Below are positions 2,909-56,945 of a stretch of DNA of 64,000 bases, one piece after another. The translations under genes were made by a program, and so were the position numbers. Source of the DNA: Halomonas sp. M20 (GTDB lineage: Bacteria > Pseudomonadota > Gammaproteobacteria > Pseudomonadales > Halomonadaceae); the NCBI RefSeq assembly GCF_020622265.1, contig NZ_JACNMQ010000006.1, positions 62,001 through 126,000 on the forward strand. Direction: 5' to 3'. Every line of letters begins with the position of its first letter. Positions within the stretch are counted from its first letter, which is position 1. The notes beneath the pieces are model-generated. The model did not search any database, was not told the origin of the DNA, and was given only the letters and a program-made list of their open reading frames with translations.

Positions 2909-3895
2909 CTATCCCTGACACACCAGTCCGCTTTGCCGGATTTCCTCAACGCGCGCCGAGCCAATGCCATTGATGCGAGTAAGATCATCGACGCTGGCCC
3001 AGGGCCGACCGCCGATGATGTCCTGCGCACGTGCCGGACCGACGTTAGGGAGCCGATCGAGCTCGCTTGGCAGCGCCCTATTGAGATCGATGCAGTGATA
3101 GCCACGACCATCAGACAAACCGCGTGCGGTCACTGAGTCGTTTATCTCGGTGAACGCGGGACTCGCATTGCCCGTGGTCAAATAAATCGGCGCATGGTCC
3201 GAGACGGAGGCTCGCGCAGTCTGATGGTCAATCCCTAACATCTGCGGGAAATGAACAATACCAGCCTCGGTCACGTCGAGTGAGTTCGCATCAATCCAGA
3301 AGTTGTCATAGAGGCTGGCATATCGACCATCGCGTTCACTGAGCGTCGTGGCGCCGGTGGTAATCGCTGGCTGGGCGCCGGCATCGCGCAGCGGCTGCCA
3401 GGCGAGATCGCTAGGAGGCAGATTGAAGTCGCCGACGATCAGCCGAGCGCTGCCGGGATAGACCTCATACATCCACTCCCAGATGCTGGCCAGTTCTTGT
3501 ATTTCTGGCGTGCGGTCGGTGCGGCTATCGCCGTAGACGATATGCACTACTGCCATGGCGACCGTCTCCCCACTGTCCTTATCGCGAAATTCCGCCAGGT
3601 AAGGCTCCCGCGCGAAAAGGTCGCCCGGATCGAGATAGACCACGGCGCCCTGGGTGTAATCGACCGCGCTGTCGCGCCACAGGAACGCATAGCTTTCTTG
3701 ATAAGTGTTACGCCCCACCGCGTGTGATGCCATGGAGCTCCACGATTCTCCGGTCTGCTGCTCCAGTTGCCGCTCAAGCGTTTGGACCGCGCCTGTGTCC
3801 ATCACTTCTTGAAGGGCCCAAAGATCCGCTCCCTGCATGATCCCGGCGACCGTGGCAAGGTGCTTGCCGTTGTTCCAGCCCAAGTGCTTGAGGTT
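2909..3895 (-). pseudogene. EEP-family secreted nuclease/phosphatase with HhH tail, 3' part of split gene
   Basis: This is the larger part of a gene interrupted at codons 34-35 by the island. From NLKHLGWNNGK onward it shows DNase I-like EEP motifs: LQEVM (the metal-binding Glu), VGDFN and the catalytic SDHAP. A C-terminal helix-hairpin-helix region of ComEA type follows (LPNVGPARAQDIIGG, then INGIGSARVEEI). The signal peptide and first strand are missing here but present at 56841-56945, in the same orientation and frame. An ATG at 3934 inside the insert gives an artificial start (MTDRRPGWGAPAK) without a signal peptide, so an export-competent enzyme is unlikely. Family role: extracellular nuclease or phosphodiesterase. 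Confidence 0.85.
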
Positions 3896-4247
3896 TTTTG
3901 CCGGAGCGCCCCAACCAGGCCTCCTGTCTGTCATTTAGAACGAAGCCACTTGGTATCAGTTAGACAGGTGCACCTACTACCTACGTCCCGCACCACGTTC
4001 CATCAACTCTCGCCTTCGTAAGCTGCTGGGACGCAGAAGGTGGAGGGAATACTGCAATCGCAATTGGTAATGTTTTGCAACATCCAGATTCAGCTGTACC
4101 GCCTAACTTCTGAGTAGCTCAGGGTTCGCTATTGGTGAGAGTATGAAACCAAGAAAAACCAGCCGACACTGTCAGCTGGCTCTTGTTGCATGAACTATCG
4201 GCTGATGCCGTAGCTCAGTCTTGAAGATATAAAGTACCTAACCAGGC
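3896..4247. other. Left island terminus, no gene
   Basis: No coding sequence can be supported. The stretch holds the subterminal inverted repeat CCTGTCT/AGACAGG (3923-3968) and one CATTTAG motif, which are candidate recombinase-binding sites. The remainder is featureless. Confidence 0.4.
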
Positions 4248-4532
4248 TTATTGGCGAATACCTTCAAGCACAACATATAACTCGACTTCATGCATGACTT
4301 CGGGGAATTGGCTCATATCGATACCGTAATCAGCCAGCTCCAATGTGGTGCTCCCCTCGAAGCCTTGGGGCAGCATCTCCCAGGGAATGCCCGAGCGCAG
4401 CACAAACAGGATGCCCGTCAAGGCTGCGCGATTGGAGATGGGAGGCCGGCCACCGCGTGGCCTGGGCGTCGGTGGTGGCAGCAGTGGCTCGACAATGGAC
4501 CAGAGTTCGTCGGATACGATTTTCTTAGCCAT
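4248..4532 (-). pseudogene. IS5-family transposase N-terminal fragment (DUF4096)
   Basis: Residues 1-57 (MAKKIVSDELWSIVEPLLPP through GIPWEMLPQ) match the DUF4096 N-terminal domain of IS5-type transposases. After MLPQ the frame runs into unrelated sequence (GFEGSTTLELADYGIDM...) and stops. The catalytic DDE part is absent, so this is a broken remnant. Confidence 0.75.
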
Positions 4533-5106
4533 ACCGAAAATCTAGGAATGACTGAAGGGGTTTTCAAGGTTTTGAAAGGCACTCTTAGTCATTCGCATCT
4601 CTTTCACTCCTTTCACGCAATTAACCAATATCAATACTGAACAAAAGTCAAAATATTCCCACAATCTACCGCCATGAATCAAGCATAAAGACGTCCCACT
4701 TTCCCCCTTTACCCTTCTTCAGAAAATGGCTGTGCTTCCACACCCTTTAGGCCAACAACAATCAACCCCCCAATGTTCAGCGCCATTTCAGCTTGGCTGC
4801 GCAGACTGACAGCTGACAAGGGTCAAGAAAAGAATCCTTAACCACTTCCTCACTTTACCCTTGAGCAACCCATAGGTTGTATCCTGATAACAAGCTCGCA
4901 TTCGCAACGTGGCGATAGGTTGACGGCAGACGGCAAAGGACAGCGACGATGAACAGGCTGGTGCTGTTCATGCCACAGGCAGGAATCACCTGAAGCCCCC
5001 TCTTCTGAGCTGCACAGGCTATAGTGCCTGGGCTCATAGAATCACCGCAGCACCGTTGACTACACGGTAGAGGCAGGAGAGCCAGACGACTACCGAGGGG
5101 CCGCAC
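4533..5106. other. No recognisable gene
   Basis: About 570 bases in which I see no supported coding sequence on either strand. A short dyad (AACC CATA GGTT, 4867-4878) is the only structure noticed. Confidence 0.4.
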
Positions 5107-5226
5107 TGGATTCCACCCACCGAAGACGTGGATCCCGTGTGTGGCAAAACCGTCAGTACCGAACAGGCCAAGCCGAGTGTTCACGATGGCCATGACTACT
5201 TTTTCTGCTCCCGTGACTGCCATTGA
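5107..5226 (+). pseudogene. YHS-domain gene fragment
   Basis: 39 codons starting WIPPTEDVDPVCGKTVSTEQ and reaching FFCSRDC, then a stop. This is a partial copy of the YHS protein at 13265 (which reads WIPPAEDVDPVCGKTVSTEK ... YFCSRDC), without its membrane N-terminus and C-terminal tail. The codons just upstream do not continue the homology. DNA from here to 5427 contains no gene that I can name. Confidence 0.8.
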
Positions 5227-5427
5227 GGACGAGCAGGACAAAACATGCGCCGCTGTGGGTGCTCGGCGTGAAGGTGCCACTGGCGATTGCCACCGCCCTG
5301 GGGCTTCGTCCACTGAAGCAGGCACAGCATGAGGAAAGCGCTCGGGCTTTGATGGCATCTGCCAGCCGGCTGTCATTCATCCCCAAGGAGGCCGAGTGGG
5401 TGCAACGACAAGCGTGGGAGATCGGGA

Positions 5428-6183
5428 TTGGAAAACATGGCCAGGCAGAAGAAGCCGGAAGACGGCGCCCCTTCCCGCTTATCCCAAGCCTCGAGGCGGC
5501 GCATCCTGTGTGGCGTTGGGCTGCTTGCCGCCTTCCTTGCCACCACCCTGCTGCTGTGGCGCACCGGGACGCTGGAAACCCTGCTGACCGGCGACACCCT
5601 CGAGCAGGCAGTGATACGGCTTGGCCCGTTGGGGCCGGTCCTGGTCATCGGCCTGATGACCCTGGCCATCGTCATGAGCCCGATTCCCAGCGCCCCGATA
5701 GCGCTTGCCGCCGGCGCGGCCTATGGCCATGCCTGGGGGACGCTCTATGTCGCCATCGGCTCCGGCACGGGGGCGCTGATCGCCTTCTCCATTGCCCGCC
5801 TGCTGGGATATGACGCCCTGAGGACCTGGTTGGGCGTGCGCCCTACTCCAAACCTGCTACACCGTTTCATCGGCTCGCAGAATGCCCTGATGGTCGCGGT
5901 TTTCGCGACCCGGCTGATGCCGTTCCTGTCCTTCGACGTCCTCAGCTACGCGGCCGGCCTCACCCCCCTCAAGGCCTGGCGCTTTGCCGTCGCGACGCTG
6001 CTCGGGATCATTCCGGCGAGCTTCCTGCTGGCGCATTTCGGTGACGAGCTCGCCTCCAGCGATCTGCGCCGCGCGGGCCTCACGGTGCTCGCGCTCGGCA
6101 CCATCACCCTGCTCCCCCTGGCCTGGAAGGCGGCTCCGGCGCGCTATCGCGCGACCGTAAGGCGCTGGCTGCATCTCGGGTAG
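5428..6183 (+). CDS. TVP38/TMEM64-family (DedA superfamily) inner-membrane protein
   Basis: 251 residues, normal length for the family. A short charged N-terminus is followed by about six hydrophobic segments. The central SNARE-associated/VTT core is visible: PIPSAPIALAAGAAYGHAWG, then GTGALIAFSIARLLG, FIGSQNALMVAVFATRLMP and a C-terminal GIIPASFLLAHFGDELASSD. Family knowledge: DedA/TVP38 proteins are lipid- or envelope-related membrane proteins; this one's substrate is unknown. The ATG at 5428 is used, and 5437 is an alternative. It stands alone between a YHS fragment and an IS5 element and may once have belonged to the metal-stress block. Confidence 0.85.
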   Translation: MENMARQKKPEDGAPSRLSQASRRRILCGVGLLAAFLATTLLLWRTGTLETLLTGDTLEQAVIRLGPLGPVLVIGLMTLAIVMSPIPSAPIALAAGAAYGHAWGTLYVAIGSGTGALIAFSIARLLGYDALRTWLGVRPTPNLLHRFIGSQNALMVAVFATRLMPFLSFDVLSYAAGLTPLKAWRFAVATLLGIIPASFLLAHFGDELASSDLRRAGLTVLALGTITLLPLAWKAAPARYRATVRRWLHLG

Positions 6184-6344
6184 CCGAGTCTCAGCCCCGC
6201 CAAGCGCCCTGCTTGAAGCGTCAATGATGGGGTTCTGGCATGGGGTACGGGGACGCCTAACCCGGCATGCCTAGCCGACATCCCAATGACATGACGCCCC
6301 AACAGGCTCCGCCCATTCAGGGTTGGTTCAGCTTTGCCATCTAG

Positions 6345-7198
6345 GGGCTGTTGACGTTTCACATCGGTAGCCAGAGAAACCCACACGCCATGGCCACCAT
6401 GCTCTCGTAATTTCGCTTTAGCTTGTCATAGCGGAACGCCACTGCGCGGTAGTGCTTTAACCGCGCAAAGGCATTCTCGACCAGATGCCGATAGCGATAC
6501 AGTCCTTTATCCAGATCGGCATTGCCCCTGAGCGAGTTACGTTTTCTCGGAATCACCGGATGGGCCCCCTGGCCCTTGATCTGCTCACGAATGCGTTCAC
6601 TGTCATAGCCCTTGTCAGCCACAATCGCCTCGCCACAGGGCAGTTGGGCTATCAAGCCGGGGGCTTCGGTACTGTCGTTGATGTTGCCTCCCGTAAGTCT
6701 GAAAGCGACAGGTAATCCATAAGCATCAACAGCTAAGTGAATCTTGCTCGTGTGGCCAGCACGGCTCTTGCCGATGGCCTCAGACTGACTGCTGGCAGCG
6801 CCGGCACTGTGCTGGTGAGCCTTGACGTAAGTCCCATCGATGAACATCCACTCGAAATCAGGCTCTTCGATCAGCGCATCAAATACCCTGAGCAGCTTGC
6901 CTGCCGCCGACCAGGCATTGAAGCGTTTATAGACCGAATTCCAGTACCCAAAGGCGCAGGGCAGGTCCCGCCATGGGCAGCCTACGCGCATCCGGTAAAG
7001 AATTCCCTCCACCGTCATTCGCAGATCAGGCTTGCGGTAGATGGCCTGTTGAACCAGAATTTTCTCCAGCTTCGACCAGAGCTCGTCACTGAGCATCAAT
7101 CGGGGCATTGCAGACTCGCAGAGTGTCGGTGTGGAAACCTCAATTCTGCGGGACTGCTCTTATTCAGCAATGCCGTTCTCGTGAAACGTCAACAGACC
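6345..7198 (-). mobile_element. Complete IS5-family insertion sequence
   Basis: An 854-bp element. Its ends are near-perfect inverted repeats, each reading inward to CTGTTGACGTTTCAC. It is flanked by CTAG on both sides (6341-6344 and 7199-7202), a 4-bp target duplication of the YTAR type typical of the IS427 group. One uninterrupted transposase is inside, so the copy looks recently active. Confidence 0.85.
6359..7108 (-). CDS. IS5-family (IS427-type) transposase
   Basis: A 249-residue single-frame DDE transposase. The DUF4096 domain occupies about residues 1-80 (LSDELWSKLEKIL ... GCPWRDLP). The catalytic acidic residues are in MFIDGTYVKAH, IVADKGYDSERI and VENAFARLKHYR. No frameshift is seen, unlike many IS427 copies split in two frames. 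It catalyses movement of the surrounding 854-bp element. Confidence 0.9.
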   Translation of the reverse strand: MPRLMLSDELWSKLEKILVQQAIYRKPDLRMTVEGILYRMRVGCPWRDLPCAFGYWNSVYKRFNAWSAAGKLLRVFDALIEEPDFEWMFIDGTYVKAHQHSAGAASSQSEAIGKSRAGHTSKIHLAVDAYGLPVAFRLTGGNINDSTEAPGLIAQLPCGEAIVADKGYDSERIREQIKGQGAHPVIPRKRNSLRGNADLDKGLYRYRHLVENAFARLKHYRAVAFRYDKLKRNYESMVAMACGFLWLPM

Positions 7199-7202
7199 CT
7201 AG

Positions 7203-7525
7203 GCTAGGGGTGAGCCTCACAAAACCGGAAATTGCATGACATCGATCAAGGTTCGGAGCTATCCGCAACCCTGGTGCTCCCCACTCGCTTGACCTTTGCG
7301 TTACCCAAGGGCTTTAGGCTTCGAGCAAATCGGCGGCTTCCCAGCGTCCAGGTATCGCCAGAGGCCTAGGGCCGGCGACGGCATCAAGGATGCCCTGGGC
7401 CGAAGGGGGAGTAGATCAGTATCGTCATTGCGATCAGCTCGGTGTCGGTGGCGGGCAATGCTCCGCACTTCCACCAGATGTGGATCTACCCGTGCATGAC
7501 GAAATGGCAGAAGGGAGAGTTTCGT
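7203..7525. other. Leader region with a MerR-type promoter, no gene
   Basis: About 320 bases between the IS5 element and the HMA-like gene. Apart from the promoter at 7289-7320 nothing else is recognisable. The spacing implies a long 5' leader of about 200 bases. Confidence 0.45.
7289..7320 (+). promoter_or_regulatory. MerR-family (CueR/ZntR-like) promoter
   Basis: -35 TTGACC (7289-7294), a 20-bp spacer and -10 TAGGCT (7315-7320). The imperfect dyad CCTTTG/CAAGGG is centred about 2.5 bp upstream of the spacer centre, the geometry of MerR-family activated promoters. It points at the gene at 7526. No CueR or ZntR gene is in the window. Confidence 0.6.
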
Positions 7526-7864
7526 ATGTCAAAGAACGAACACCGCCTCGGCGTCTCCGAGGTCAATCTAGTGACTCGCAAGCTGAAGCTCGAGCCCTGC
7601 GATCAGGATGAGTTACGCGTCGCCATGGACGAGATCGATGGGCTATACGGGCTCGAGCGAGTCACCTATGACACCGAGAAGCACAAGCTCAGTATGGCCT
7701 ATGATGCGACGCGGCTGTGCATCGACCATATCGAGGCGATCCTCGCCTGGCACGCCATCGAGATCAGCCATGGCTGGTGGACGCGCTTCAAGGAAGACCA
7801 CTACCGGTTCGTCGACCAGAACATCAAGGACAATGCCAGCAAGGAGCCATGGAGTTGCCATTGA
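7526..7864 (+). CDS. HMA-like small protein with C-terminal WSCH tail
   Basis: 112 residues from an ATG preceded by AAGGGAGAG. The first about 75 residues have the beta-alpha-beta-beta-alpha-beta pattern of heavy-metal-associated domains (VNLVTRKLKLEP ... VTYDTEKHKLSMAYDATRLCIDHIEAILAWH), but without a GMxCxxC loop. The tail (WWTRFKEDHYRFVDQNIKDN ... PWSCH) is strongly conserved in a second copy at 21348. Metal binding through the terminal Cys-His is possible but inferred. The MerR-type promoter upstream supports a metal-related role. Function unknown. Confidence 0.7.
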   Translation: MSKNEHRLGVSEVNLVTRKLKLEPCDQDELRVAMDEIDGLYGLERVTYDTEKHKLSMAYDATRLCIDHIEAILAWHAIEISHGWWTRFKEDHYRFVDQNIKDNASKEPWSCH

Positions 7865-8075
7865 CTGCTCTCTTCATCGCCGCCGCAGCCATGTCGTTCG
7901 GCTCGGTATCGGTGATACGACACTCCCTGCGCTCGAGCCAAATGAGGATCTGACCACGAGGTCTGTCGATGGCTATTGATCGATGTCGATCTCATCGACG
8001 TTTTCCATAGCCCCGACCGTCTGCTGACGGTCGCCCACGCCCCACAGGGGCCTCAATACTTAGGACATGTCTCTC

Positions 8076-9155
8076 ATGAAGAACTCTCTGCACAGTTCTT
8101 GGCTGGCTAGTCTCATGGCCGGCATCGCCCTCGCAGCCTCAACGACCGCCCTGGCGGCGAGCGACCGGGCCTTCGTGCCGATGGGGACGGCAGATGCCGT
8201 GGGTATCATCGACCTGGAGCGTCAGGAGGTGATATCGACCGTGACCGATACGATCAATACGCACGGCTCCGCCCTCACTCCTGACGGACGACACCTCATC
8301 GTGGGGAGCCTTTCCCCGCAGGATGCCGGTCGCGAGATCGTTCGTCCCGAGGGGGTGACGGAAGACGAGCACGCGGCCCATCATGGCGATGGCGCAACGA
8401 CCTCCCCGGAGGAAGCGAGTACCGGCCTGCTCTACGTCGTCGACACGGCCACGAGCCGCATCGTCAGAACCCTGGAAGTGCCAGGGGCCGTGCATCATGT
8501 GCTGGTCACGCGAGACGGGCGTCATGCCGTCTCGACCCACCCCACGGGCGGAGGCATCAGCATGGTGTCGCTGGATAGCGGCCAGGTCATCGCCTCCCTG
8601 GCCACGGGGCCGAATCCGAACTACCTGGTTCAGCACGAGGAGGGGGGTAGCATACTGGTCAGCAACGCCGGTAACGGCACCATCAGCGAGGTGGATCCTC
8701 AGCACTGGTTCGTGCGGCGCAACATGCGCGTCGGCGGGAACCCGGAACACATGGTGCTCTCGAAGGACGGTAAATCCCTCTACGTCAACGATCATGCCGG
8801 GGGCCGCGTCCTGGCGGTGGATCTGACGACAGGCAGTGTGGCGGAGGATTATGAGATCGGCACGGCGCCTCACGGCATCGACCTGAGTCCGGATGGCCAG
8901 ACGCTCTATGCGACGAGTCAGGGCGACAACCGCCTCGTCAGGATCTCCCTCGAGGAGGGCACACGGCATGCCGCCGAGCTGGCACCGGCCCCCTACCATC
9001 TCGCCGTTTCGCCCACCGATGGGCGGGTGCTGGTCACCAGCCGCGACGAACCCCACCTGTGGATCATCGCCCCGGACACCCTCGAGGTGTTGCAGACCGT
9101 GGAGCTGGGGGGCATCGGTCACCAGATATCTCTCGGGGCATCGCCTTCCAGGTGA
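8076..9155 (+). CDS. Periplasmic YVTN-type beta-propeller protein
   Basis: 359 residues. A Sec signal peptide (about 1-29, ending TTALAAS) is followed by repeated blades of 40-45 residues with the pattern GxxPxxxxxSxDGxxLYxxx (for example VGGNPEHMVLSKDGKSLYVN and IGTAPHGIDLSPDGQTLYAT). This is the cytochrome-D1-like/YVTN propeller family. A His-rich loop (DEHAAHHGDG) sits near residue 105. The ATG at 8076 is preferred over 8067 because TAGGAC is correctly spaced only for 8076. Such proteins often accompany metal or respiratory loci; no enzymatic residues are seen. Confidence 0.8.
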   Translation: MKNSLHSSWLASLMAGIALAASTTALAASDRAFVPMGTADAVGIIDLERQEVISTVTDTINTHGSALTPDGRHLIVGSLSPQDAGREIVRPEGVTEDEHAAHHGDGATTSPEEASTGLLYVVDTATSRIVRTLEVPGAVHHVLVTRDGRHAVSTHPTGGGISMVSLDSGQVIASLATGPNPNYLVQHEEGGSILVSNAGNGTISEVDPQHWFVRRNMRVGGNPEHMVLSKDGKSLYVNDHAGGRVLAVDLTTGSVAEDYEIGTAPHGIDLSPDGQTLYATSQGDNRLVRISLEEGTRHAAELAPAPYHLAVSPTDGRVLVTSRDEPHLWIIAPDTLEVLQTVELGGIGHQISLGASPSR

Positions 9156-9260
9156 ACCAATGAGTTGGTGACCGCGAAGTCTGCTTCCGCACCTAGGCCG
9201 GCGACCCTGACGATCGCCGGCCGATAGCCATTCCCTTCATTTCACCCAGGTAGAAGCTCT

Positions 9261-9983
9261 GTGGAAACGCTCTCCTCCATCGGCCTGATCGGCGCCCTCT
9301 TCGGCGGGCTGCTGTCGTTCTTCTCGCCCTGCACCCTGCCCTTGCTGCCCGCCTATCTGTCGGTGGTCACCGGCGGCAGTGCCGGCAAGGCGGATCGGCG
9401 CTTCGAGGCGTTGCTGCTCAGCACCTTCTTCGTCTTCGGCTTCAGCGTGGTCTTCATCCTGATGGGCCTGGGGGTCACCAGCATCGGCCAGCTGCTGCGT
9501 GGTTATCGCCAGGAGCTCAACTGGATCACCGGCAGCATCGTCATCGTGCTCGGCCTATTCATGACGGGCGTGTTCCGGCTGCCCGTCCTGCAGCGCAGCT
9601 TTCAGTGGTCGCCCGAGCTGAGAGGGGGCTCTCCCATGGCGGCGACCTTCTTCGGCATCTCCTTCGCCATCGGCTGGACGCCCTGCATCGGCCCGATCCT
9701 GGGGGCGATCCTGATGGCCACCTCGACCACCGCCAATGCCCAGGCCGGCATGCTCTACCTGGCGACCTACTCCCTGGGCCTGGCCCTGCCCTTCCTGGCC
9801 AGCACCCTGCTGCTCAACAGGTTCAGCCACTACCGGGGCCGCCTCGGTAAGTGGAGTGCCTATGCCCGACCAGTCGCCGGAGTGATCCTTATCCTCATGG
9901 GGTTGCTGATCGTCTCCGGGACGCTCACCCGGCTCTCCAGCATCCTGGTGGACTGGTTTCCGGCCCTGGCCACAATCGGCTGA
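9261..9983 (+). CDS. CcdA-family thiol-disulfide transmembrane protein
   Basis: 240 residues from a GTG start. Six hydrophobic segments carry the two CcdA/DsbD signature cysteines, in FFSPCTLPLLPAYLS (near residue 25) and GWTPCIGPILGAIL (near residue 140). Family role: moves reducing equivalents from cytoplasmic thioredoxin across the inner membrane for cytochrome c maturation or periplasmic thiol repair. Downstream of the propeller gene, it could keep periplasmic metal-binding cysteines reduced, which is inference. It ends convergently with the TPM gene at 10118. Confidence 0.88.
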   Translation: METLSSIGLIGALFGGLLSFFSPCTLPLLPAYLSVVTGGSAGKADRRFEALLLSTFFVFGFSVVFILMGLGVTSIGQLLRGYRQELNWITGSIVIVLGLFMTGVFRLPVLQRSFQWSPELRGGSPMAATFFGISFAIGWTPCIGPILGAILMATSTTANAQAGMLYLATYSLGLALPFLASTLLLNRFSHYRGRLGKWSAYARPVAGVILILMGLLIVSGTLTRLSSILVDWFPALATIG

Positions 9984-10117
9984 GGGCGTTGATCGACATC
10001 CAACCGTCGAGTCTCCTGCGACTTCTCAACGTATCGCCCCACGTGTTCCGTGTCAGACGGCGGCACCTCTGCCGGGGAGAAGCACTCGTCATGCCCCGGT
10101 GCATGGGCAGATGAGGG

Positions 10118-10735
10118 TCAATCCAGCACGATCAGATGATTGGGCAGTTCGTTGCGCTCGTGGGTGGCTGGTACCTGCTCCTTGAGATGTTCGCCGCATG
10201 CCTCGATGCACGCCAGGAAACCCCGCAGGGTCTCACCTGCCTTCACCTGCTGGGTGAACGCCGCCACGATGGATTGCCAGGTCTCGTCGCTGATACGTGC
10301 CGAGATGCCCCGGTCAACCAGGATTTCCACATACCGCTCGGCTTCGGAGACGAAAATCAGCATCCCCGTTCCCCCCTCGGTGTGGTGCAGCTCCTGTTCC
10401 AGGAACTGCCGCCGGGCGAGGTTGGCCGCCCGCCAATGACGAACCGATCGCGGGATCAGCCGGGTGGTGATGGCGGGGATGCGAAACACCAGTCCCAGCA
10501 CGATGAAGGTCGCCCACTGCACCAGCGTCAGCTCGTAGGCCGTCAACCAGCCGGGAAAGTAATTGACCGCACCCGGTACCACCAGGGCCAGCAGGCCGGC
10601 CCAGAGCAGCGGGATATAGGCATAGTTGTCCGCTCGCGGAGCCAGCACGGTGACCAGCTCGGCATCGGTGTCGCGTTCGACCCGATGAATCGCCTCGGCT
10701 ACCTGGCGTTGCTCGTTTTCACTCAGTAAGGCCAT
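10118..10735 (-). CDS. TPM-domain membrane protein
   Basis: 205 residues. The TPM fold is split around two transmembrane segments (about 42-60 and 70-90): MALLSENEQRQVAEAIHRVE at the start, then GGTGMLIFVSEAERYVEILV and DRGISARISDETWQSIV. It is the third gene of a lemA-TPM-TPM operon, a common arrangement; the exact role of the family is unsettled (envelope stress or protein quality control are suggested). No catalytic residues can be named. Confidence 0.8.
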   Translation of the reverse strand: MALLSENEQRQVAEAIHRVERDTDAELVTVLAPRADNYAYIPLLWAGLLALVVPGAVNYFPGWLTAYELTLVQWATFIVLGLVFRIPAITTRLIPRSVRHWRAANLARRQFLEQELHHTEGGTGMLIFVSEAERYVEILVDRGISARISDETWQSIVAAFTQQVKAGETLRGFLACIEACGEHLKEQVPATHERNELPNHLIVLD

Positions 10736-12194: not shown

Positions 12195-12211
12195 GGGGTC
12201 AGTCATCCCTG

Positions 12212-48583: not shown

Positions 48584-49521
48584 GCCTGCCCTCCCTTGCT
48601 CGCCGGTCGCGTGACATCGATCACTTCGGCACCTGACTCGTCGAGACAGGTGGTCTCCACCTGCAGTGTGGCGAAGAAAAAGCCATAATGATCCTTGAGC
48701 ATGCTATAGCCGGCTTTGAGCACGGCCTGTGGATCGGTGCCGTCGGAGATTCGCAGGTGACCGGAGAATACGTAACGGCCGCTGGTCAGTGCCCAGGCGT
48801 GCACGTGATGAGCATTTTCCACGCCGTCAAGCGCTATCAGTGCTTCCGTCACCTCGGCCAGTCGAATCTCGGAGGGCGTACCCTCCATCAGCAAATGGGT
48901 GGCATCGCGCAGGATACCCCAGCTCGCCCACAACAGTACGAAGCCGAAGGCCATGCCAAGCAGCGGGTCGATCAGCAAGAACCCGGTGAAGCGAATCACC
49001 AGCGCGGTGACGATGATGAGCAGGCTGCCGACGAAAGTCTGGATGATATGCCACAATGCGCCTTTGACGTTCAGGTCGCTGCGGCTTTGTTTCCAGATCA
49101 GGCCCAGCGAGACGATCTCGGTAAGCAGGCCGCCAGCCGCCGCCCACAGCATGGGTGCCGTGGACAGATCAATGGGGTCGGTCATCCGCATGCCGGCCAT
49201 CACGACCACGATCAGCGCCATGCCCAGCAAAAAGCCGCCGTTGACCAGGGCACCCACGATCTCGGCGCGATACCAGCCGAAGCTGCGGTCCTCATCAGCC
49301 GGGCGGCGGGCGAGCCGGGCAGCGGTGATGGCCACCAGCACGCCACCCACCGCCGAGAAGGTGTGGAAGGCGTCCGAGATCACCGCGACCGAGCCGGTCC
49401 AAAGACCGATGCCCATCTCGATGAAGAAGTAGATCCCCGTCAGCCAGGCCGAAATCGCCATTCCAGATCCACTGGAAGGCATGTGCCCCGCATGGCCGTG
49501 ACCGCCGTTGCCGTGATTCAT
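48580..49521 (-). CDS. Cation diffusion facilitator-like protein with altered metal site
   Basis: 313 residues from the ATG at 49521 (a longer frame upstream is not supported). His-rich start (MNHGNGGHGHAGHMP), six helices and a C-terminal cytoplasmic domain (HHVHAWALTSGRYVFSGHLR). In ordinary ZitB/CzcD proteins TM2 has HxxxD and TM5 HxxxD; here TM2 reads SDAFHTFSA (Asp to Ala) and TM5 ALWHIIQT (Asp to Thr). Both site Asp are lost, so substrate or activity may differ from Zn/Co efflux. Confidence 0.85.
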   Translation of the reverse strand: MNHGNGGHGHAGHMPSSGSGMAISAWLTGIYFFIEMGIGLWTGSVAVISDAFHTFSAVGGVLVAITAARLARRPADEDRSFGWYRAEIVGALVNGGFLLGMALIVVVMAGMRMTDPIDLSTAPMLWAAAGGLLTEIVSLGLIWKQSRSDLNVKGALWHIIQTFVGSLLIIVTALVIRFTGFLLIDPLLGMAFGFVLLWASWGILRDATHLLMEGTPSEIRLAEVTEALIALDGVENAHHVHAWALTSGRYVFSGHLRISDGTDPQAVLKAGYSMLKDHYGFFFATLQVETTCLDESGAEVIDVTRPASKGGQA

Positions 49522-49872
49522 AAGCGCACCTTGTCTCCGTTTCAGTACGTGCCATTCGATCATGGGCATCGTGTTCGAGCGATCACGTCCGGGCCCCGGC
49601 ATGGCCAGAGATTCATTCATGACGCGGCCCCTGCCCAGTGTTGCCACGTACCCCTTTCGACTCGACATCTGATTGGGTCACCGACTGATCCGAAAGGCTC
49701 GAGAGTAACCCCGTCAATCTGCCCGCATGCATGAGCGGTTCCTCCAACTTGAGAAGAGCACCGCACGAACAAGGTACACCGGCCGAAGAGCAACGGGTTT
49801 GTCGAACGTCTGCATAGAACGCTGTTGGACGAGCATTGTCAATGGCCATCAGAACTGACCCACCCGTGATCG
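49522..49872. other. Intergenic between CDF operon and IS21 remnant
   Basis: No supported gene. A 78-codon minus-strand frame (49613-49849) has a Cys-containing segment but no recognisable homology or ribosome site. The IS21 end is probably in the last few tens of bases. Confidence 0.4.
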
Positions 49873-50613
49873 TCAGCTGAGCGTCTTCTGCTTCAGCCGG
49901 TAGCTCTCCCCGCCGAGCAGGTAGAGGTGCGAGTGATGGATGATCCGGTCGACGATCGGCACCGCCACGTTGTCGTCGTGGAAGAACTCGCCCCAGCTGG
50001 TGAAGTCCTTGTTGGTGGTGATGATCAGCGACCGGTGCTCGTAGAACCGGTTGATCAGCTGGAACAGCGCGTAGCGCGCCTGCCGGCTCATCGGCAGGTA
50101 GCCCAGCTCGTCGATCACCAGGGCGTCGACCTTGGCGAGCTTGTGCAGCGTCTTCTTCAGCTCGCCCTTCATCTCCGCTAGCTCCAGCTCCTCGACCAGG
50201 TCCAGGGCGTTGCGGAACAGCACCCGGTAGCCGGCCTCGATGGCCTTCTGGCCGATACCGATGCTTAGATGAGTCTTGCCCACCCCTGGCGGGCCGATGA
50301 ACACCAGATTCTCGCGGTTATCGAGGAAGGAGAAGTCCAGCAGGGCGTTGATCTGGCGCTTGGTGATGGTGGTCTGGTGCCGGTAGTCGAACCCCTCCAG
50401 CCGCTTGTCGCTGGGGAAGCCGGCTTGGCGCCGGTAGAGGTCGATGCGCTTCGCCTCGCGGGTCTGGCGCTCGTGCTCGACCAGCATGTCGGCAAAGGCC
50501 AGGTAGGAGACCTCGTTAGCCTCGGCCTGAGCCAGCAGCGCGGTGAGGCCGCCGGCGATGGCGCCCAGGCGCAGGCTGCGGTAGCGCCCGACGGTCAGCT
50601 CAAGCTGCCCCAT
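49873..50613 (-). CDS. istB: IS21-family helper ATPase IstB
   Basis: 246 residues. AAA+ ATPase with Walker A FIGPPGVGKTHLSIGIGQKA, Walker B ALVIDELGYLPMS and sensor motif LIITTNKDF. It assists the IstA transposase. The transposase gene itself is missing upstream apart from about 30 codons, so the element cannot move by itself. Confidence 0.93.
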   Translation of the reverse strand: MGQLELTVGRYRSLRLGAIAGGLTALLAQAEANEVSYLAFADMLVEHERQTREAKRIDLYRRQAGFPSDKRLEGFDYRHQTTITKRQINALLDFSFLDNRENLVFIGPPGVGKTHLSIGIGQKAIEAGYRVLFRNALDLVEELELAEMKGELKKTLHKLAKVDALVIDELGYLPMSRQARYALFQLINRFYEHRSLIITTNKDFTSWGEFFHDDNVAVPIVDRIIHHSHLYLLGGESYRLKQKTLS

Positions 50614-50715
50614 GGGTCACCTCCTGCTGGCCGCTGGAGTGGCCAAGCCGGCCGTACTGAGCCAGCTCCGCCGGTGTCGTACAGGGGATCAGGTATTTAT
50701 GGCGGTTCTGCCTGA
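50614..50715 (-). pseudogene. Probable istA 3' remnant
   Basis: Upstream of istB, in its usual place, the minus strand reads KYLIPCTTPAELAQYGRLGH and then SSGQQEVTHG, running up to the istB start. This looks like the C-terminal tail of IstA; the rest is deleted at the junction with the recombinase module. Confidence 0.45.
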
Positions 50716-50783
50716 AACCCGCTTGGATCAACCTATGTGCAATTAACGCCGTGTATATTAGCCGCACCAAGCCCGAGCACTCC

Positions 50784-52199
50784 TCAAAACTCAGGCGTTC
50801 TCTGGTCTTTAATTCTCGCGATGGGGCGGGTTTCTTTCGCAGCGCTCAGTAATGTATCAATATTCCTGCCGAGCAACTTGGCCTCCTCAAGCGAGGTAGC
50901 CGACTCAAGAGCGTTGCGTAAGCCTTGAAGCTCGTGAGAGAAGGCAGCAATTTGCCGCTCGAAATAGGCCATCCTTTCGGCACTGCTGAAGTAGCCTGCC
51001 TTTTCATGGGCCATATGCAGGTATGGCGCTACGCCCTGCATTGATTTGTGGCCTGTCTGGCTCATCAGCCGCACGCCTATACCGGCCTGGGCCGCCGCAG
51101 ATCCCCGGGTGTCCAGGGCATAGGCGCAAGCCAGGATGTCGATCCAGTTATGGCGCAGCAGATGAAGGTGCGCAGGCTCATGCAACCCGGCCAGCTTCTT
51201 CAGTTGTAGCACTTCATCGCTGAACGAGCGCGTCGCCCATGACCGGCCATCGCTTGCGACGAAAAGGAGTCCGGGATCGGCATCTATGATACCGTTAGTC
51301 TTGCCACGTAAGATCGCCCGCTTTCTCGGCCCCTTGATCCAGCGGATCGCTCGCATGATCAGTTCCGGTGCAAAAGCGACAACTCGCTCATCGTTAACGA
51401 TGCCGGACTTCGCGACTGTCATGGCAACTCTGACGCTCTGCTGACTCTCGGGGCTGCGCCTCTGTTCCTCCAAACGGCGCTTAGCCTCTTCAATATCCTT
51501 CACTGTCAAACGCGACAACTCGATACGTCGTGCTCCTGTCTGCTCCGCGCACGAGAGAAGTAGCTTCATCCTATCCCGGCGAAACTTGCCGCTCTCACCT
51601 GGCACTCCTAATCTGGGAATCGCGTTCCAAAGCGCTTCAATCGTCTCCGAAGATACCGGGAAGCGCGGGACCCGGGCACTCACCGGTAGAAGTGAAGCAT
51701 GAGCGAAAGTGCTCTTTGCGATTGCTCCACGCTTAGTGCGGATCTGATACGTTTCCATACCAATGACAATCTGCGCAGGATCCTCGGTACCAATAACCAA
51801 ACTGTCGCCGAAGTAGTGCCTACGCTGTAGCCAACTAAGAGCATGGAAACAACGACGCAGAATGGTGTTGATCTGGTTGTTACTCCGCTCTGTTTTATCC
51901 CGGAGAAGGTGGTTGCGAAAGTCGACCATCGTCTGGCCATCAATGGCGACGAGCGGGAGCCTGAGACTGTCTAGGTATTGGACGAAGAGCGATAGATTGG
52001 CGGCATATGTCTGGAGTGAGCCCACGGCCTTCGTACCCGTGCCGAAGTACCGTAGCAGATAGTCTATGAACGGCCAAAAAGGATACCCGGCATTGTCGAG
52101 AATCAATGGCATACCAGCGTCATCGCACTTGTACGCTCTTTTGAATGCCGGATCGCGGATATTAGCGGCCTGCGTCGAGCGGAGAATTTTTCTCATCAT
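50784..52199 (-). CDS. Tyrosine recombinase, fourth gene of the module
   Basis: 471 residues from 52199 (GAGGATGAG upstream; 52196 also possible). Phage-integrase fold: core-binding half (TYAANLSLFVQYLDSLRLPL) and catalytic half with Arg (TGARRIELSRLTVKD), His-x-x-Arg (HLHLLRHNWIDIL), GHKSMQ and Tyr (VAPYLHMAHEK). All catalytic residues seem present. Overlaps the end of the 210-residue gene by 38 bases, so it is co-translated. Confidence 0.88.
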   Translation of the reverse strand: MMRKILRSTQAANIRDPAFKRAYKCDDAGMPLILDNAGYPFWPFIDYLLRYFGTGTKAVGSLQTYAANLSLFVQYLDSLRLPLVAIDGQTMVDFRNHLLRDKTERSNNQINTILRRCFHALSWLQRRHYFGDSLVIGTEDPAQIVIGMETYQIRTKRGAIAKSTFAHASLLPVSARVPRFPVSSETIEALWNAIPRLGVPGESGKFRRDRMKLLLSCAEQTGARRIELSRLTVKDIEEAKRRLEEQRRSPESQQSVRVAMTVAKSGIVNDERVVAFAPELIMRAIRWIKGPRKRAILRGKTNGIIDADPGLLFVASDGRSWATRSFSDEVLQLKKLAGLHEPAHLHLLRHNWIDILACAYALDTRGSAAAQAGIGVRLMSQTGHKSMQGVAPYLHMAHEKAGYFSSAERMAYFERQIAAFSHELQGLRNALESATSLEEAKLLGRNIDTLLSAAKETRPIARIKDQRTPEF

Positions 52200-52794
52200 T
52201 CTCATCCTCAGCCACTTGGCTGCCAGGTAAAGGCTGCTTTGCAGCAACGAGCGCAAGACGGTACTTGGCATGGTGGCGCCGCATCGCCTCTTGTCGATGG
52301 GCATTCATTTGAGCTTCGGCTTCCAGCGTGCTTACTGCGTCCAGGTAAGCAGCGCGCAACTGAAGGAGAGCATCTGTGAGGACGCTCACCTGGTGGTTAA
52401 GGTCGCTGTTGCGTGCTTTGAGCCCGGTCTTGGTATCCGACCGCTTCTTATTGATTAAGGTGTCCTGAGAATGTTCTCGGAGCGCTTTTTGCTCTTGGGT
52501 CTTATGAAGGGCGCGGAGTTGCTTCGAAAGTCCTTTTAAGTCCTTATACAGATTCAGGTCACAATTCTTTGCAGCGTTGACCGAGCAGCAGACAATCTCC
52601 AGGCCCTTCTCCTTACTCTTAAACTCCCACGCGCAAATGCATGCCACAGACGCGTAGGCTTCAAAACCATCAGGGATTCGGCCTTCAGTGAGCATTTCCT
52701 GCAGATGCCTCTGTTTCCATATCAAGCTCTTATGAATTCTCGCCTGCTTCTCGGCGATCCCGGACGCAATTTGACCAGACTGTAATCTTGGCAA
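52162..52794 (-). CDS. Coiled-coil accessory protein of recombinase module, TnpC-like in position
   Basis: 210 residues from a TTG start with GGGAGG upstream. No catalytic motif; mostly charged helices with a heptad pattern (LYKDLKGLSKQLRALHKTQE ... LTDALLQLRAAYLDAVSTLE). In position it resembles TnpC of Tn554, a small third protein next to two recombinases. Starts 2 bases after the preceding gene. Confidence 0.65.
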   Translation of the reverse strand: MPRLQSGQIASGIAEKQARIHKSLIWKQRHLQEMLTEGRIPDGFEAYASVACICAWEFKSKEKGLEIVCCSVNAAKNCDLNLYKDLKGLSKQLRALHKTQEQKALREHSQDTLINKKRSDTKTGLKARNSDLNHQVSVLTDALLQLRAAYLDAVSTLEAEAQMNAHRQEAMRRHHAKYRLALVAAKQPLPGSQVAEDENDEKNSPLDAGR

Positions 52795-52796
52795 GG

Positions 52797-54752
52797 CTAT
52801 GCAACCTCCCTCTGATATCGGATAATGAGCGCTTCGCCTGCGCTCTTCACATCCGGACTGGCAACGACCTCGATGTTGAGCGCTCCTGATTCGTGCAAGT
52901 ATTCAAGATAGTCTTGGAGATCCTCGTCAGGAATGACTTCGAGGCGGTTGACATTGAAATGGCGCTCCACATCCGCCTCAAGCTTTTCCCGGTTTTCAAC
53001 ATTGGCGATGTGCCTACGCAGGGCTTCCATCGTAAAGCGCGCCTCCTCCTCGAAGAGTTCTGCCCCACCCATGGACTCTTGGATGTAGCGGAGGGTTTGC
53101 TCTTTGTTCAGGTGACCCATGAACCATGACAGGGCGTCGAGGGAGGCGTCGCGGCGATGCCAAAAGAAGGCCATCGCGAAGAAGCGACGCAGTTCGTGTG
53201 GCTGCACGTACCAGCGAGCAAGAACGTCATTGACGGTCTGGGCTGGTACTTCGATCATGTCGGCGAACTGCGCCATGCGATTGATAATCAGATGCCTCCC
53301 CTCTATATCTCGAAGCGCGTCCCCGAAGCGAAAGATGAAGCCGCTCGTGCTGGCAGTCCCCGAGAGCGACGCAATAAGCCCGAATGCCTGTGCGCCGACA
53401 TCGGGTATCGGCCGCAACACTTCCTGCATAGGTCCATAGTCACTTCCCTTTTCCAGGTAAAAGCGCAGCCGATAGCAGCCCGGCTCGCCGACCAAACCGT
53501 CTCCACGGAGCGCAACAAGCTCCTCGACTCGCCGCGCTGAGAACGCGCCAAGCACTAGGAAGCAAGCGCCGATGAGACAATCTATCGCATCGAAAATAGA
53601 GGGGGATTCGCGCCGGGTACGGTGTTTGACGCCGGTGTGATATCTGTGGGCACGAACTATATTCAGTGAATCAAGGGCTACAGGCTGGCGTACCTTGCCA
53701 AACGCAGCTGTGCCACTGTATTTGCTTAGTCTTTGGCCGCCAGTCGCATCCACTAGGTCGAAATAATAGCCGACCAGCTCGTGGCCATACTCAACCACCC
53801 ATTTGATCGCGTGATTGAGGTAGTGCAGTGCGATTGGGTATGGAATGGTAGGGGTTCTGTTGGTGCCGCGACCGAGTTGTTCTGCGTATAAGCTTGGGCT
53901 TGATTCGATACCGAAGGCGTCAAAGCCAATGCCGTCTGGCAGATACGGACGTTGGGTGAAAAGTTCTCGCCAGGGTAGCAGAAGACTATAGATCGTGTGC
54001 TTGCCAACGGTAGGCTCTACGTCATCACCCCAGCCATTCGCGATTCGAAGATCGACCAGCTCAGTTGTATAGGCACTTCGGTCATTGCGTCGCGGCATTG
54101 ATAACCCGCTCTCCTCCAGAATGGCCCTCACTGCTGGACTCTTGGCTAAATGTACCATCGGGAGATCGGTCGCATCGGCCAACTTCTGATAGGAAACCAA
54201 GCCATCTGCATTCAGTATTGAGCTGTAGTCCTCGTTATCTTCTAGGTCCGCAAGATACGCCTGAATGTTCTCAGAGACACCGAGAAGGCCCTCCAAACCC
54301 CGCTGGACATCCTCAAGAAACCATTCGAAGTGCTTCACTGTCAGGGCCCCGAATCGGAGCATGGTTAAAGGCTCGCTCAAGCCTCGCAAGATCATCCAAC
54401 GTATGAGGGCTATAGCGCCATGGGCAAGTTTTAGCTGCACCCTTGCATTCGATGTGAACATCGAAGGGCCGGAGCGGGAGAGCCACACCAGACGCCGGAT
54501 CGTCTCCAGCAGATCCGCCATCTCCGGGTCTAGCAAAGTCCTTCCCTTCAGCAACCTAACGTCCCAGTTGATACGATTGGCTCTACGCCACCGATCGGTG
54601 CCGGGGACTCGCTCTTCTTTGCCGAACCCCCTTTTGATGTACCACACCGGGGCGTGCCAGTCGGACAGCAGCCAATCGGCTATAGGAGTCTCCGAGAAGT
54701 CAGGAGCATCAAGAAAGCTAATGAGTTGGGCGCGGTCGAGAGACTTTTTCAT
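52797..54752 (-). CDS. Large tyrosine recombinase, TnpB-like
   Basis: 651 residues from the ATG at 54752 (GGAGG upstream; overlaps the stop of the previous gene as ATGA). The catalytic part is in the C-terminal third: Arg in FSARRVEELVALRGD, His-x-x-Arg in QPHELRRFFAMAFFW, GHLNKEQ and Tyr in TLRYIQESM. Size and position resemble Tn554 TnpB (about 630 residues). Expected to take part in integration and excision of the island. Confidence 0.85.
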   Translation of the reverse strand: MKKSLDRAQLISFLDAPDFSETPIADWLLSDWHAPVWYIKRGFGKEERVPGTDRWRRANRINWDVRLLKGRTLLDPEMADLLETIRRLVWLSRSGPSMFTSNARVQLKLAHGAIALIRWMILRGLSEPLTMLRFGALTVKHFEWFLEDVQRGLEGLLGVSENIQAYLADLEDNEDYSSILNADGLVSYQKLADATDLPMVHLAKSPAVRAILEESGLSMPRRNDRSAYTTELVDLRIANGWGDDVEPTVGKHTIYSLLLPWRELFTQRPYLPDGIGFDAFGIESSPSLYAEQLGRGTNRTPTIPYPIALHYLNHAIKWVVEYGHELVGYYFDLVDATGGQRLSKYSGTAAFGKVRQPVALDSLNIVRAHRYHTGVKHRTRRESPSIFDAIDCLIGACFLVLGAFSARRVEELVALRGDGLVGEPGCYRLRFYLEKGSDYGPMQEVLRPIPDVGAQAFGLIASLSGTASTSGFIFRFGDALRDIEGRHLIINRMAQFADMIEVPAQTVNDVLARWYVQPHELRRFFAMAFFWHRRDASLDALSWFMGHLNKEQTLRYIQESMGGAELFEEEARFTMEALRRHIANVENREKLEADVERHFNVNRLEVIPDEDLQDYLEYLHESGALNIEVVASPDVKSAGEALIIRYQREVA

Positions 54753-56722
54753 GTAGCCTCCAGGAGCTCGTTGAGACATGGGAACTCGATTTCGCAGTCT
54801 GTATTGCGCGCCAGCGCGAGGCCTTCTCGATAGATGCTCGCAAGTTCGCGGTCCATACAACTGCGCATGACGCCATGTAGACAATTGCGCAGGTCGAGCC
54901 AATCGCGAGCCAGAAAGCGTTTATAGACTCTATCTAGACTGAATCGGGGGTGCCTCGCCTGCAACTCCTTGAGCGCATCGCACAGCCGCTCAAGCACCGC
55001 GACATTCCTCGGGCTGAGCATAAATACCGATTGCTGTTGCGGAGTGGATTCGGCCACGATCTCCCGATCTCTTCTTTTGAACATGGGGGACCCGGACAAG
55101 GCCTTGTCTTGGCGAATCGCCTCCAGCTCGGTACTCAGCCCATCAAGGGACTCAAAACGCAGCGCTTTCACCAAAATATCGGCATCTTGCTGCGTTGCAG
55201 CGATAACTAAGAGGTTTTGGAATTTGCGAATCTGATGCTCATAGAAGGCGTCCTGGATCTCTTTGGGAATGTAGTTGCGGAGGGCGACGTCGGGTCTGTT
55301 ATTAAGATACGCGGCGGCGACCTGCATATCGCCTCCGGCTTCGAACCAAACCACAACGCCCCCCAGGACACGGACATCCGCTCGGGTTATAGGCTTCGAG
55401 ATAAGCGCGCTGATACTAGGCCAGCGACGCAAGAACGCTTTCCAAAGGCTCTGATGCTTTCCTATCGGAGCCGGCACATCGCCCCTTCTTGGTGCCAGCC
55501 ACAGGGCCATTTCGCCATCTTGCCGCCAGTGCTCCGTCATCGCATACAGTGCGGACATGATCTCCGAGACACTGATCGCCTCGCTTGGGCCTGCAAGCTT
55601 ATGAACGACCTTCGCCGCCCTTGGCTTCACAACAGCAACACGGGTCAGGGCGGGGTCGTCGAATGAGCTAGTTAGACGCAATTCGCCATTTAAATTTTGC
55701 AGGCGAGCCGAATCCAGTGACTCCACGTTCACTCCTAGCTCAATCACCAGCAGAATGAAGAACGCTACGGAGGTTGTTCGAGTCAGCCCAAGATGGCGAC
55801 GAACAAATTCTCGACCGTAACTCTGTGTCACACTTCCCCATGAAAAGGGCAGTGCCTCCAGGACGGCGATTCCGTTGTGGCGGTGATGAAGGTAGCCCAC
55901 GAGATTCTGCAAACCATTTGGGTGGTACGTCGAGAAGAAACTGATGCGAGCCTGGTATTTGCCATGCCGCAGATCAGGGTCACACGTAACGCCCCGGCCC
56001 AGGAAGTACTCCAAGCGCTCGATGTCACAGGCTCTAGCCATTTCCTGACCTCTCTTGAAGAGTTCGATGGATTCGCTGGCCTCCTGCTGAGCCGCCTCCC
56101 GAATAGCTCGCAAAAGCTCGCTGCTGGCTCTGTGAACGTCGTCGAAGAACTCTCCATCTTTCACGCTCGGGAGTGCAAGTTTGCGTGCACTGCTACTCGT
56201 AATGGCGAGCTTGTCCAAAACGGTCGGAGTAGAGCGATGAATTTTTCGAAGTCCCGGCACTTTCTTATCTAACGGAGGCAGTGGAAAAACCGGGATTACT
56301 TTGATCTGTTGTAATTGCCGCAGGTGTAGGCGACCGGCTTCCCAATAGCGATGAGAGGAGAGATATTCCCGCTCTTCCGAGCTGAGCCACGAAATCAGCC
56401 AGCTATGAAGATTATCAAAGACTTTGGTTGCGCTCGATTGGTAGAAGGATGGGTTCCGACCATGGGTGGTGCACCACTCCAGATAGTTATTTATCGGATA
56501 AATAACATGCTGCTGGGTGGTCTGCGACCTCCCCGCCAGTTGCCTCTCCATACCTGAACGCAGCCGATCAGCTTCAGAGACAGGAAGGTGGCGCAGCCCC
56601 GAGAACTGGTAGGTTCGGGTCTTTCGCCCTCCCGGGAGGATGCATGTGAGGGTAAAATTGGTACCTATGTCAGAGCGCCCGACTGTCATATAGCACCATT
56701 GCTTCTTTATGATTGTTGTCAT
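54749..56722 (-). CDS. Large recombinase-like protein with degenerate catalytic motif
   Basis: 657 residues, first gene of the module at the island's right end. The C-terminal region has the outline of a tyrosine recombinase (ADVRVLGGVVVWFEAGGDM, then AAYLNNRPDVALRNYI), but His of HxxR is replaced (TRADVR) and the GH box is LNN. The protein may be a structural or DNA-binding partner instead of an active enzyme. The N-terminus contains a likely core-binding domain. No similar named family is recognised with certainty. Confidence 0.65.
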   Translation of the reverse strand: MTTIIKKQWCYMTVGRSDIGTNFTLTCILPGGRKTRTYQFSGLRHLPVSEADRLRSGMERQLAGRSQTTQQHVIYPINNYLEWCTTHGRNPSFYQSSATKVFDNLHSWLISWLSSEEREYLSSHRYWEAGRLHLRQLQQIKVIPVFPLPPLDKKVPGLRKIHRSTPTVLDKLAITSSSARKLALPSVKDGEFFDDVHRASSELLRAIREAAQQEASESIELFKRGQEMARACDIERLEYFLGRGVTCDPDLRHGKYQARISFFSTYHPNGLQNLVGYLHHRHNGIAVLEALPFSWGSVTQSYGREFVRRHLGLTRTTSVAFFILLVIELGVNVESLDSARLQNLNGELRLTSSFDDPALTRVAVVKPRAAKVVHKLAGPSEAISVSEIMSALYAMTEHWRQDGEMALWLAPRRGDVPAPIGKHQSLWKAFLRRWPSISALISKPITRADVRVLGGVVVWFEAGGDMQVAAAYLNNRPDVALRNYIPKEIQDAFYEHQIRKFQNLLVIAATQQDADILVKALRFESLDGLSTELEAIRQDKALSGSPMFKRRDREIVAESTPQQQSVFMLSPRNVAVLERLCDALKELQARHPRFSLDRVYKRFLARDWLDLRNCLHGVMRSCMDRELASIYREGLALARNTDCEIEFPCLNELLEAT

Positions 56723-56840
56723 TTAGAAGCGTAGCGTAGTTATCAGGAAGAGACCGAAAATAATTCCTTTTTAAAACTGATATTTATTAAATTGATAAAT
56801 TTACTCACAAGCTAAATGATAGTGCAGCAGACCGACTAAA
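56723..56840. other. Right island terminus
   Basis: AT-rich stretch between the first recombinase gene and the EEP junction, with the palindromic run TTTATTAAATTGATAAATTT-like sequence (56782-56802) and one inward CATTTAG (56818-56812, minus). Probably contains the recombinase-binding arm sites and the operon promoter. Confidence 0.45.
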
Positions 56841-56945
56841 GAGGTTCCAGCTGCCGATCGTGATATCCGCTGATGCTTGACCCCAAAGGCCAAGGGCGAG
56901 CGTTAGCGCGACGGCGGACTTTAGCGTATTGAGCAGGCGGAGCAT
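56841..56945 (-). pseudogene. EEP gene, 5' part with signal peptide
   Basis: 35 codons: MLRLLNTLKSAVALTLALGL, WGQASA, then DITIGSWNL, ending exactly at the AACCTC hexamer. A Sec signal peptide with cleavage near ASA-D is clear. It continues out of frame into the island and is the missing start of the 2909-3895 part. Confidence 0.88.

Follow-up and report, generated by a model that had tools for sequence, protein, structure and literature searches.

How do two pieces of one EEP (endonuclease/exonuclease/phosphatase) gene come to lie 53 kb apart on the same strand, with a recombinase operon beside one of the breaks? This question is raised by a 64,000-nucleotide stretch of Halomonas sp. M20 (RefSeq assembly GCF_020622265.1, contig NZ_JACNMQ010000006.1, positions 62,001 to 126,000), the whole of which is referred to here as the window. 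The DNA between the two pieces, hereafter the island, is very probably an integrative element that possesses its own four-gene tyrosine-recombinase operon, targets the DNA encoding Gly-Ser-Trp-Asn in EEP genes and recombines across a 6-bp core. The comparisons revealed that the insertion is precise, that a relative has the corresponding empty site, and that the element inserted a second time, in another EEP gene, at the same codons. The features that define the split gene and the island ends are as follows.

2909..3895, minus strand: EEP C-terminal piece (from the open reading frame and the joined frame)
3890..3895, minus strand: 6-bp core at the far end (attR), AACCTC (from the sequence and the comparison with sister genome G009)
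3896..56840, minus strand: island body, 52,945 bp, with the recombinase end at 56840 (from contiguity in G009 and identical end points in Modicisalibacter xianhensis)
56841..56846, minus strand: 6-bp core at the recombinase end (attL), AACCTC (from the sequence and the comparison with G009)
56841..56946, minus strand: EEP N-terminal piece, codons 1-35 (from the open reading frame and the joined frame)

Insertion sites in two species

Along the minus strand, the first codon of the EEP gene lies at 56946; the frame is interrupted after codon 35, at 56841, and picks up again at 3895, with AACCTC at both breaks (56846-56841 and 3895-3890). When the two pieces were joined with AACCTC counted once, a single frame of 361 codons was obtained, the N-terminus of which is signal-peptide-like by eye. 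In the sister genome G009, window positions 1-3895 directly adjoin 56841-64000 at approximately 97% identity over flanks of 3.9 and 7.2 kb, with an overlap of exactly 6 bp, AACCTC (2479-2484 in L005; 11917-11922 in L039). The EEP frame of G009 is open over 369 codons from stop to stop, and 319 of the 361 aligned positions are identical between the joined protein of the window and this uninterrupted protein. Given that the G009 flanks are contiguous with a 6-bp overlap, the two pieces belong to a single gene, into which 52,945 bp were inserted with one net 6-bp core. The original prediction, made from the window alone, had taken the pieces for a single gene and had proposed that relatives be searched for an uninterrupted copy; the intact gene and contiguous flanks of G009, together with the joined frame, bear this out.

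The EEP motif codons were unbroken in 28 of the 29 EEP loci given, the motif being unalignable in the other one, and the core reads AACCTC in 5 of the 28 alignable loci. A second long EEP gene of this kind was not found in the window's genome. An ATG at 3934, which lies 39 bases inside the island, is in frame with the C-terminal piece (P0006, 2909-3934, 341 aa). From the sequence, this island-supplied start without a signal peptide could allow a cytoplasmic EEP protein to be produced.

The second insertion was detected in M. xianhensis CGMCC 1.6848 (G012), which belongs to the same genus as the window. Among the 14 genomes of this genus, P0001, the product of the first recombinase gene, is present in two, namely, the window's own genome and G012, with 100% identity, and both P0001-bearing islands sit within EEP genes. 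The island of M. xianhensis shares both end points of the window island, and its recombinase end follows the window sequence to 56840 and then stops. Its target is a different EEP gene with approximately 50% protein identity to that of the window, and the break occurs at the same two motif codons (GSW-Asn-Val; GSW-Asn-Leu in the window), so that the 6-bp core corresponds to the codons Asn-Leu in the window and Asn-Val in M. xianhensis. The search proposed earlier for the same recombinase quartet at other EEP junctions was thereby successful, with an identical recombinase end. The empty site of G009 and these identical recombinases also uphold the proposal of a site-specific insertion at EEP codons 34-35.

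The two ends of the M. xianhensis island differ in their 6 bp. CACATT at the recombinase end is the complement of the target's own Asn-Val codons, AACCTC at the far end is out of keeping with the frame of that gene, and the EEP frame is restored with CACATT alone counted once. Because the ends carry different 6-mers, a target duplication is excluded. By analogy with elements described below, the AACCTC at attR suggests that the M. xianhensis copy most likely derives from a donor site with AACCTC beside the recombinase end, for example an EEP site similar to that of the window. As both window cores are AACCTC, the donor of the window island would have carried the identical 6 bp.

A third genome, G002, has a 20,000-base stretch (C15, L038) that is 99.995% identical to the window and includes the left junction together with no less than 17.4 kb of the island's left part. 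P0001 was not found in G002. When window positions 50000-60000 were compared with this genome (C28), identity was 100% from 58326 on, and below that point only 68% at 57454-57985 (40 of 66 candidates scored). G002 thus holds either an island remnant or an assembly gap.

Recombinase operon, mechanism and rival explanations

The original prediction had placed a four-gene recombinase operon within 125 bp of one island end, and the first start, at 56722, is indeed 118 bp inside 56840. From the island end inward, the order is P0001, P0002, P0003 and P0004, all on the minus strand. The operon and the adjacent gene, with ORF denoting open reading frame, are as follows.

54749..56722, minus strand: gene 1 (P0001, 657 aa), probable tyrosine-recombinase-fold protein, Tfp/GinC-like by position and fold
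52797..54902, minus strand: gene 2 (P0002, ORF of 701 aa from TTG), long tyrosine recombinase, R-K-H-R-H-Y
52162..52794, minus strand: gene 3 (P0003, ORF of 210 aa from TTG), small protein in the position of Srap/GinD/TnpC
50784..52304, minus strand: gene 4 (P0004, 506 aa), ordinary-type tyrosine recombinase
49873..50613, minus strand: IS21-type helper ATPase IstB, beside the recombinase operon

P0004 yielded weak tyrosine-recombinase matches in Pfam and NCBIfam, below the cut-offs, and its family profile matched XerA, XerD and others in the PDB. R259, H381, R384 and Y428 of P0004 are invariant and H419 is nearly so over 17 rows; P0002 keeps R458, K485, H569, R572, H597 and Y606, also over 17 rows, and the profile search of the PDB with gene 2 found nothing. 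Judged by these residues, genes 2 and 4 are predicted to encode catalytically complete tyrosine recombinases. P0003 had no family match in Pfam or NCBIfam. P0001 had no Pfam match at 0.01 and a single NCBIfam match far below its cut-off; among its residues, R451 and Y484 are constant across 38 rows, and complete or near-complete invariance was seen for no histidine. On the basis of its structure model, P0001 is read as a probable counterpart of Tfp/GinC.

The proposed mechanism follows that of the strand-biased circularizing integrative elements (SEs) and Tn554. A circular copy would carry the 6 bp from beside the recombinase end of the donor site; upon integration, the recombinase end (attL) would retain the target's 6 bp, and those brought by the circle would come to lie at the far end (attR). 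Genes 2 and 4 would cut and join the DNA, gene 1 would bind it and gene 3 would assist.

Several observations weigh against this account. Circle formation, excision and strand bias are predicted by analogy. The insertion events of this island number only two, and polarity is not readable from the window alone, where both cores are AACCTC. The empty site of the M. xianhensis EEP gene itself was not seen, the core being taken from the joined frame. The M. xianhensis island is inverted relative to its EEP gene, opposite to that of the window; a palindromic target was considered as the cause of both orientations and found no support by eye. The terminal inverted repeats of the island are weak, with 11 of 19 positions matching, a value equalled by 111 of 20,000 random island pairs. 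The assignment of P0001 is also vulnerable. Its model, built with 38 sequences, is of low confidence (mean pLDDT 66.9, pTM 0.53); the first 23 Foldseek ranks were all tyrosine recombinases with a weak best E of 6.4e-3 and none below 0.001, and its family profile matched no PDB sequence.

An ordinary cut-out and paste-in integrase element, resembling an integrative and conjugative element (ICE), an integrative and mobilizable element (IME) or Tn916, would exchange both strands, form a circle with a heteroduplex core and leave either 6-mer at either end. This alternative is unlikely; in its favour, the GInt circles and scars described in PMC5385486 contained resolved 6-nt heteroduplexes, with some empty sites, and the single informative insertion, that of M. 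xianhensis, is compatible with polarity by chance. Against it, this sole informative 6-bp pair shows the polarity of SEs, and the ORF scan, which did not extend to small ORFs, revealed nothing resembling a Xis gene. DDE-type transposition, by a Tn7-like or composite insertion-sequence element with a 6-bp target duplication and the recombinases as passengers, would agree with AACCTC at both window ends and with the IS21 helper gene near the recombinase end. We consider it very improbable, given that the different 6-mers in M. xianhensis and the frame restored with one CACATT leave no duplication, and that untargeted transposition would not be expected to hit the same codons of homologous genes twice.

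Least credible is an assembly artefact, or two distinct EEP genes placed 53 kb apart by chance. EEP relatives are common in the family and G002 has just the island's left part and left junction, as this alternative might have it; the contiguous G009 flanks, the repetition of the left junction in G002 and the sharing of both island end points by M. xianhensis stand against it. An integrative element that recombines across a 6-bp core within EEP motif codons is therefore retained as the preferred explanation.

Target genes and cargo of the wider family

A pattern-based scan that covered 84,980 species genomes returned 155 matched stretches and 116 relatives, from which the best 80 loci were kept; family genes were called with profiles of the four genes at E 1e-5. 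The closest segment after M. xianhensis showed 31% identity. Among the 80 loci, all four genes in the order 1-2-3-4 were found in 60, including M. xianhensis (53 as single frames and 7 with a member in two frames), 7 were without one or two end genes, some of them at contig ends, and 13 contained the long integrase without genes 1 and 3. The annotated order was identical in four plasmid operons. The recombinase operons of Thalassolituus, Colwellia, Neiella and Acinetobacter (L070, L071, L072 and L073) exceed 99% DNA identity, which points to recent spread across families. The E. coli annotation, searched for family names, gave 'hypothetical protein' alone.

For 51 loci, the candidate target was sought in the first large ORF lying upstream of gene 1. 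These ORFs comprised hrpB (13), comM-type, i.e. Mg-chelatase-like (12), ligA (5), EEP (1, L062) and 20 unassigned. Each of the 13 hrpB pieces picks up at (E)RSL(D/Q)ADL, which we take to lie just past motif II, and in all 12 comM pieces conservation extends as far as FLDE, presumably the Walker B motif. Four of the five ligA pieces start at VIP(K/Q), with L105 differing. Two of the 20 unassigned loci also hold such pieces: L108 has a ligA piece at the identical point VIP(K/Q), and L132 (PA7) has a comM piece at a different motif, MNPCPCGY. In 2 of the 12 comM loci (L127 and L129), the C-terminal half of comM lies 9-14 kb further on, which indicates that comM is split there. Three of the 13 hrpB loci (L095, L101 and L128) have a full-length hrpB on the far side and a displaced C-terminal piece at the recombinase end. 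The full-length gene of L095 and L128 has DEFHSRNLDADL in place of the native ERSLDADL. Elements of this hrpB type appear to carry a re-spelled C-terminal half that restores the target.

In a tree of the long integrase, the target labels cluster, with 15 changes against a shuffled mean of 28.9 and none of 200 shuffles as low; near-copies aid this clustering, and the placement of the EEP row, which forms a long branch, is uncertain. EEP as a general target of the family was rejected, since an EEP piece stands beside the operon in 1 of the 80 loci (L062). An EEP-like frame occurs approximately 5 kb beyond gene 4 in L063, and EEP was found around none of three distant relatives from other Halomonadaceae, one of which is a 6-kb contig. 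A further candidate, betT as the neighbour of the Pseudomonas copies, held for L056 only, and the neighbour of approximately 720 aa is hrpB.

Upstream of gene 1 in L118 and L139, a short frame breaks near the element end and may mark a further target gene. It begins like CinA, a putative label. The EEP protein presumably bears a ComEA-like HHH, and a link of the targets to DNA uptake (ComM, HHH and the CinA-like start) is a speculation.

With evenly balanced confidence, we propose that the whole family homes, in an intein-like manner, on the DNA for conserved enzyme motifs (EEP Asn, ComM Walker B, HrpB motif II and LigA), with one gene per lineage, that the far-end 6 bp record the previous site, and that some members carry a re-spelled target half restoring the gene.

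The remaining features of the island are cargo genes and mobile elements.

~6346..7198, minus strand: IS4/IS5-type element, absent from the M. xianhensis copy (transposase 6359-7108; extent from the alignment gap)
15157..17565, plus strand: heavy-metal P-type ATPase with HMBD domains; copper is a candidate substrate
17628..18899, plus strand: Na+/H+ antiporter NhaA
21687..27024, plus strand: acetate/propionate kinase, phosphotransacylase, a polyhydroxyalkanoate (PHA)-synthase-like protein (below cut-off) and thiolase
34131..46818, plus strand: V-ATPase operon with subunit B split (34131-34787 and 39845-40705)
34766..39907, no strand assigned: ISL3-type transposon with merA, 5,142 bp, nested in V-ATPase subunit B
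47669..49668, minus strand: transporter-like gene and CDF metal exporter

The inverted ends of the ISL3-type merA transposon are perfect over 14 bp, and its 8-bp repeat reads TACTTTCG. This transposon is absent from the M. xianhensis island, which measures 47.9 kb and is likewise without the IS4/IS5-type element. Compared with M. xianhensis (L034 and L035), window positions 17.6-34.8 kb are 87-94% identical, with 21244-21984 unaligned, and identity elsewhere is 98-100%. This pattern is a sign that the central cargo region has undergone exchange or has a separate history, and it suggests homologous recombination. The original prediction held that a single insertion brought in the copper, PHA, acetate and V-ATPase cargo; the absence of the two mobile elements from M. 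xianhensis and the lower identity of the middle contradict this for the cargo as it now stands, part of which came later or was exchanged. None of the conjugation or mobilization genes expected of an ICE or IME was named among the 30 cargo ORFs and 6 other proteins scanned, small and other ORFs being left out. Outside the island, beside the right flank, a UmuC-like frame (named by eye) at 57815-58312 ends early near 58250 and is followed by unrelated sequence.

If the proposed reading is true, the island's last home is readable from its own sequence. The two copies form a natural record of one element at a shared gene motif in each of two species, a 6-bp tag indicating the type of origin site. 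They show the route of a 50-kb metal/PHA/V-ATPase cargo among halophiles and how four-gene recombinase islands select and mark their targets. The four-gene family, two genes of which are unnamed by Pfam and NCBIfam, gains a testable target rule, which would allow island ends to be read from split hrpB, comM, ligA and EEP genes.

Relation to described mobile elements

The original prediction knew of no described element of this kind with this target. As worded, this view is not supported, as SEs, GInts (four-gene tyrosine-recombinase islands) and Tn554 have been described with such 6-bp behaviour.

SEs place the target's 6 bp at attL and the donor's at attR (PMC10214605), the core polarity seen in M. 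xianhensis, our one informative insertion. They share target specificity with the present island, and also the combination of two tyrosine recombinases (one long), a fold protein and a small protein at one end (PMC10214605, PMC9345347). The gene order differs: SEs run intA-tfp-intB-srap from the attL end (PMC10214605), i.e. Int, fold protein, long Int and small protein, as also in pAQU1, whereas the order here is fold protein, long Int, small protein and Int. The reported size of SEs has a median of 15.7 kb and a maximum of 58.5 kb, and the present island measures 52.9 kb. Imperfect terminal inverted repeats of 13-19 bp are a class feature of SEs.

The SE used as a reference consisted of the four genes beside blaGMA-1 on pAQU1, taken as the SE named by PMC10214605. 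Against this single SE, weak like-with-like signals were obtained for gene 2 with IntB (11.3 bits) and gene 4 with IntA (11.5 bits), and no similarity was found between genes 1 and 3 and its proteins, including Tfp and Srap (blastp at 1e-3, hhalign and profile search). SE-PaeBT2436 was rejected as a member of the same family, as the P. aeruginosa operons examined carry other protein accessions.

GInts resemble the island in having a four-gene operon at one end with three recombinase-type proteins and a small one, large cargo, site-specific insertion and 6-nt staggered cuts, the last being the inference of the authors (PMC5385486). Compared by description, they differ in gene order (ginA (Int), ginB (Int), ginC (fold) and ginD (small)), in sites at gene ends, 5' ends or intergenic regions rather than at mid-gene motif codons, and in flanking repeats of 10-17 nt rather than 6 bp (PMC5385486). 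A short AT-rich 3' end is a class feature of GInts; the GC content at the far end of the present island is 0.615 over the last 39 bp and 0.506 over 500 bp, and the island mean is 0.629.

Tn554 shares an ordinary and a long tyrosine recombinase, a small third protein, site specificity and a 6-bp footprint (PMC10214605, PMC3414803); by description, it has three genes (TnpA, TnpB and TnpC) and no counterpart of gene 1 (PMC10214605). RIT elements comprise three recombinases of 315-410 aa with 34-bp terminal inverted repeats (PMC10214605), whereas the ORFs here are of 657, 701, 210 and 506 aa, and no 34-bp inverted repeat was found at the island ends. Jumbo-phage islands, with one integrase and a tmRNA site (PMC12595487), are of a different kind.

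The gamma-mobile-trio (GMT) islands of Vibrio, a class marked by the proteins GmtX, GmtY and GmtZ, could belong to the same family as the present operon, and the relatives of this operon in Vibrio may be of that class. Mahata et al. (2024) reportedly defined GMT islands by recombinase-type genes and found them common in Vibrio. Of the recombinase-operon proteins compared with NCBIfam, which came from the window, Providencia, P. aeruginosa, P. putida, Vibrio and P. fluorescens, none matched a model bearing the GMT name.

The kind of mobility proposed here is accordingly known in outline. The EEP target, the 1-2-3-4 gene order and the motif-codon rule were not found in the literature listings and paper passages searched. 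The operon of the island represents a third arrangement of like parts, beside those of SEs and GInts.

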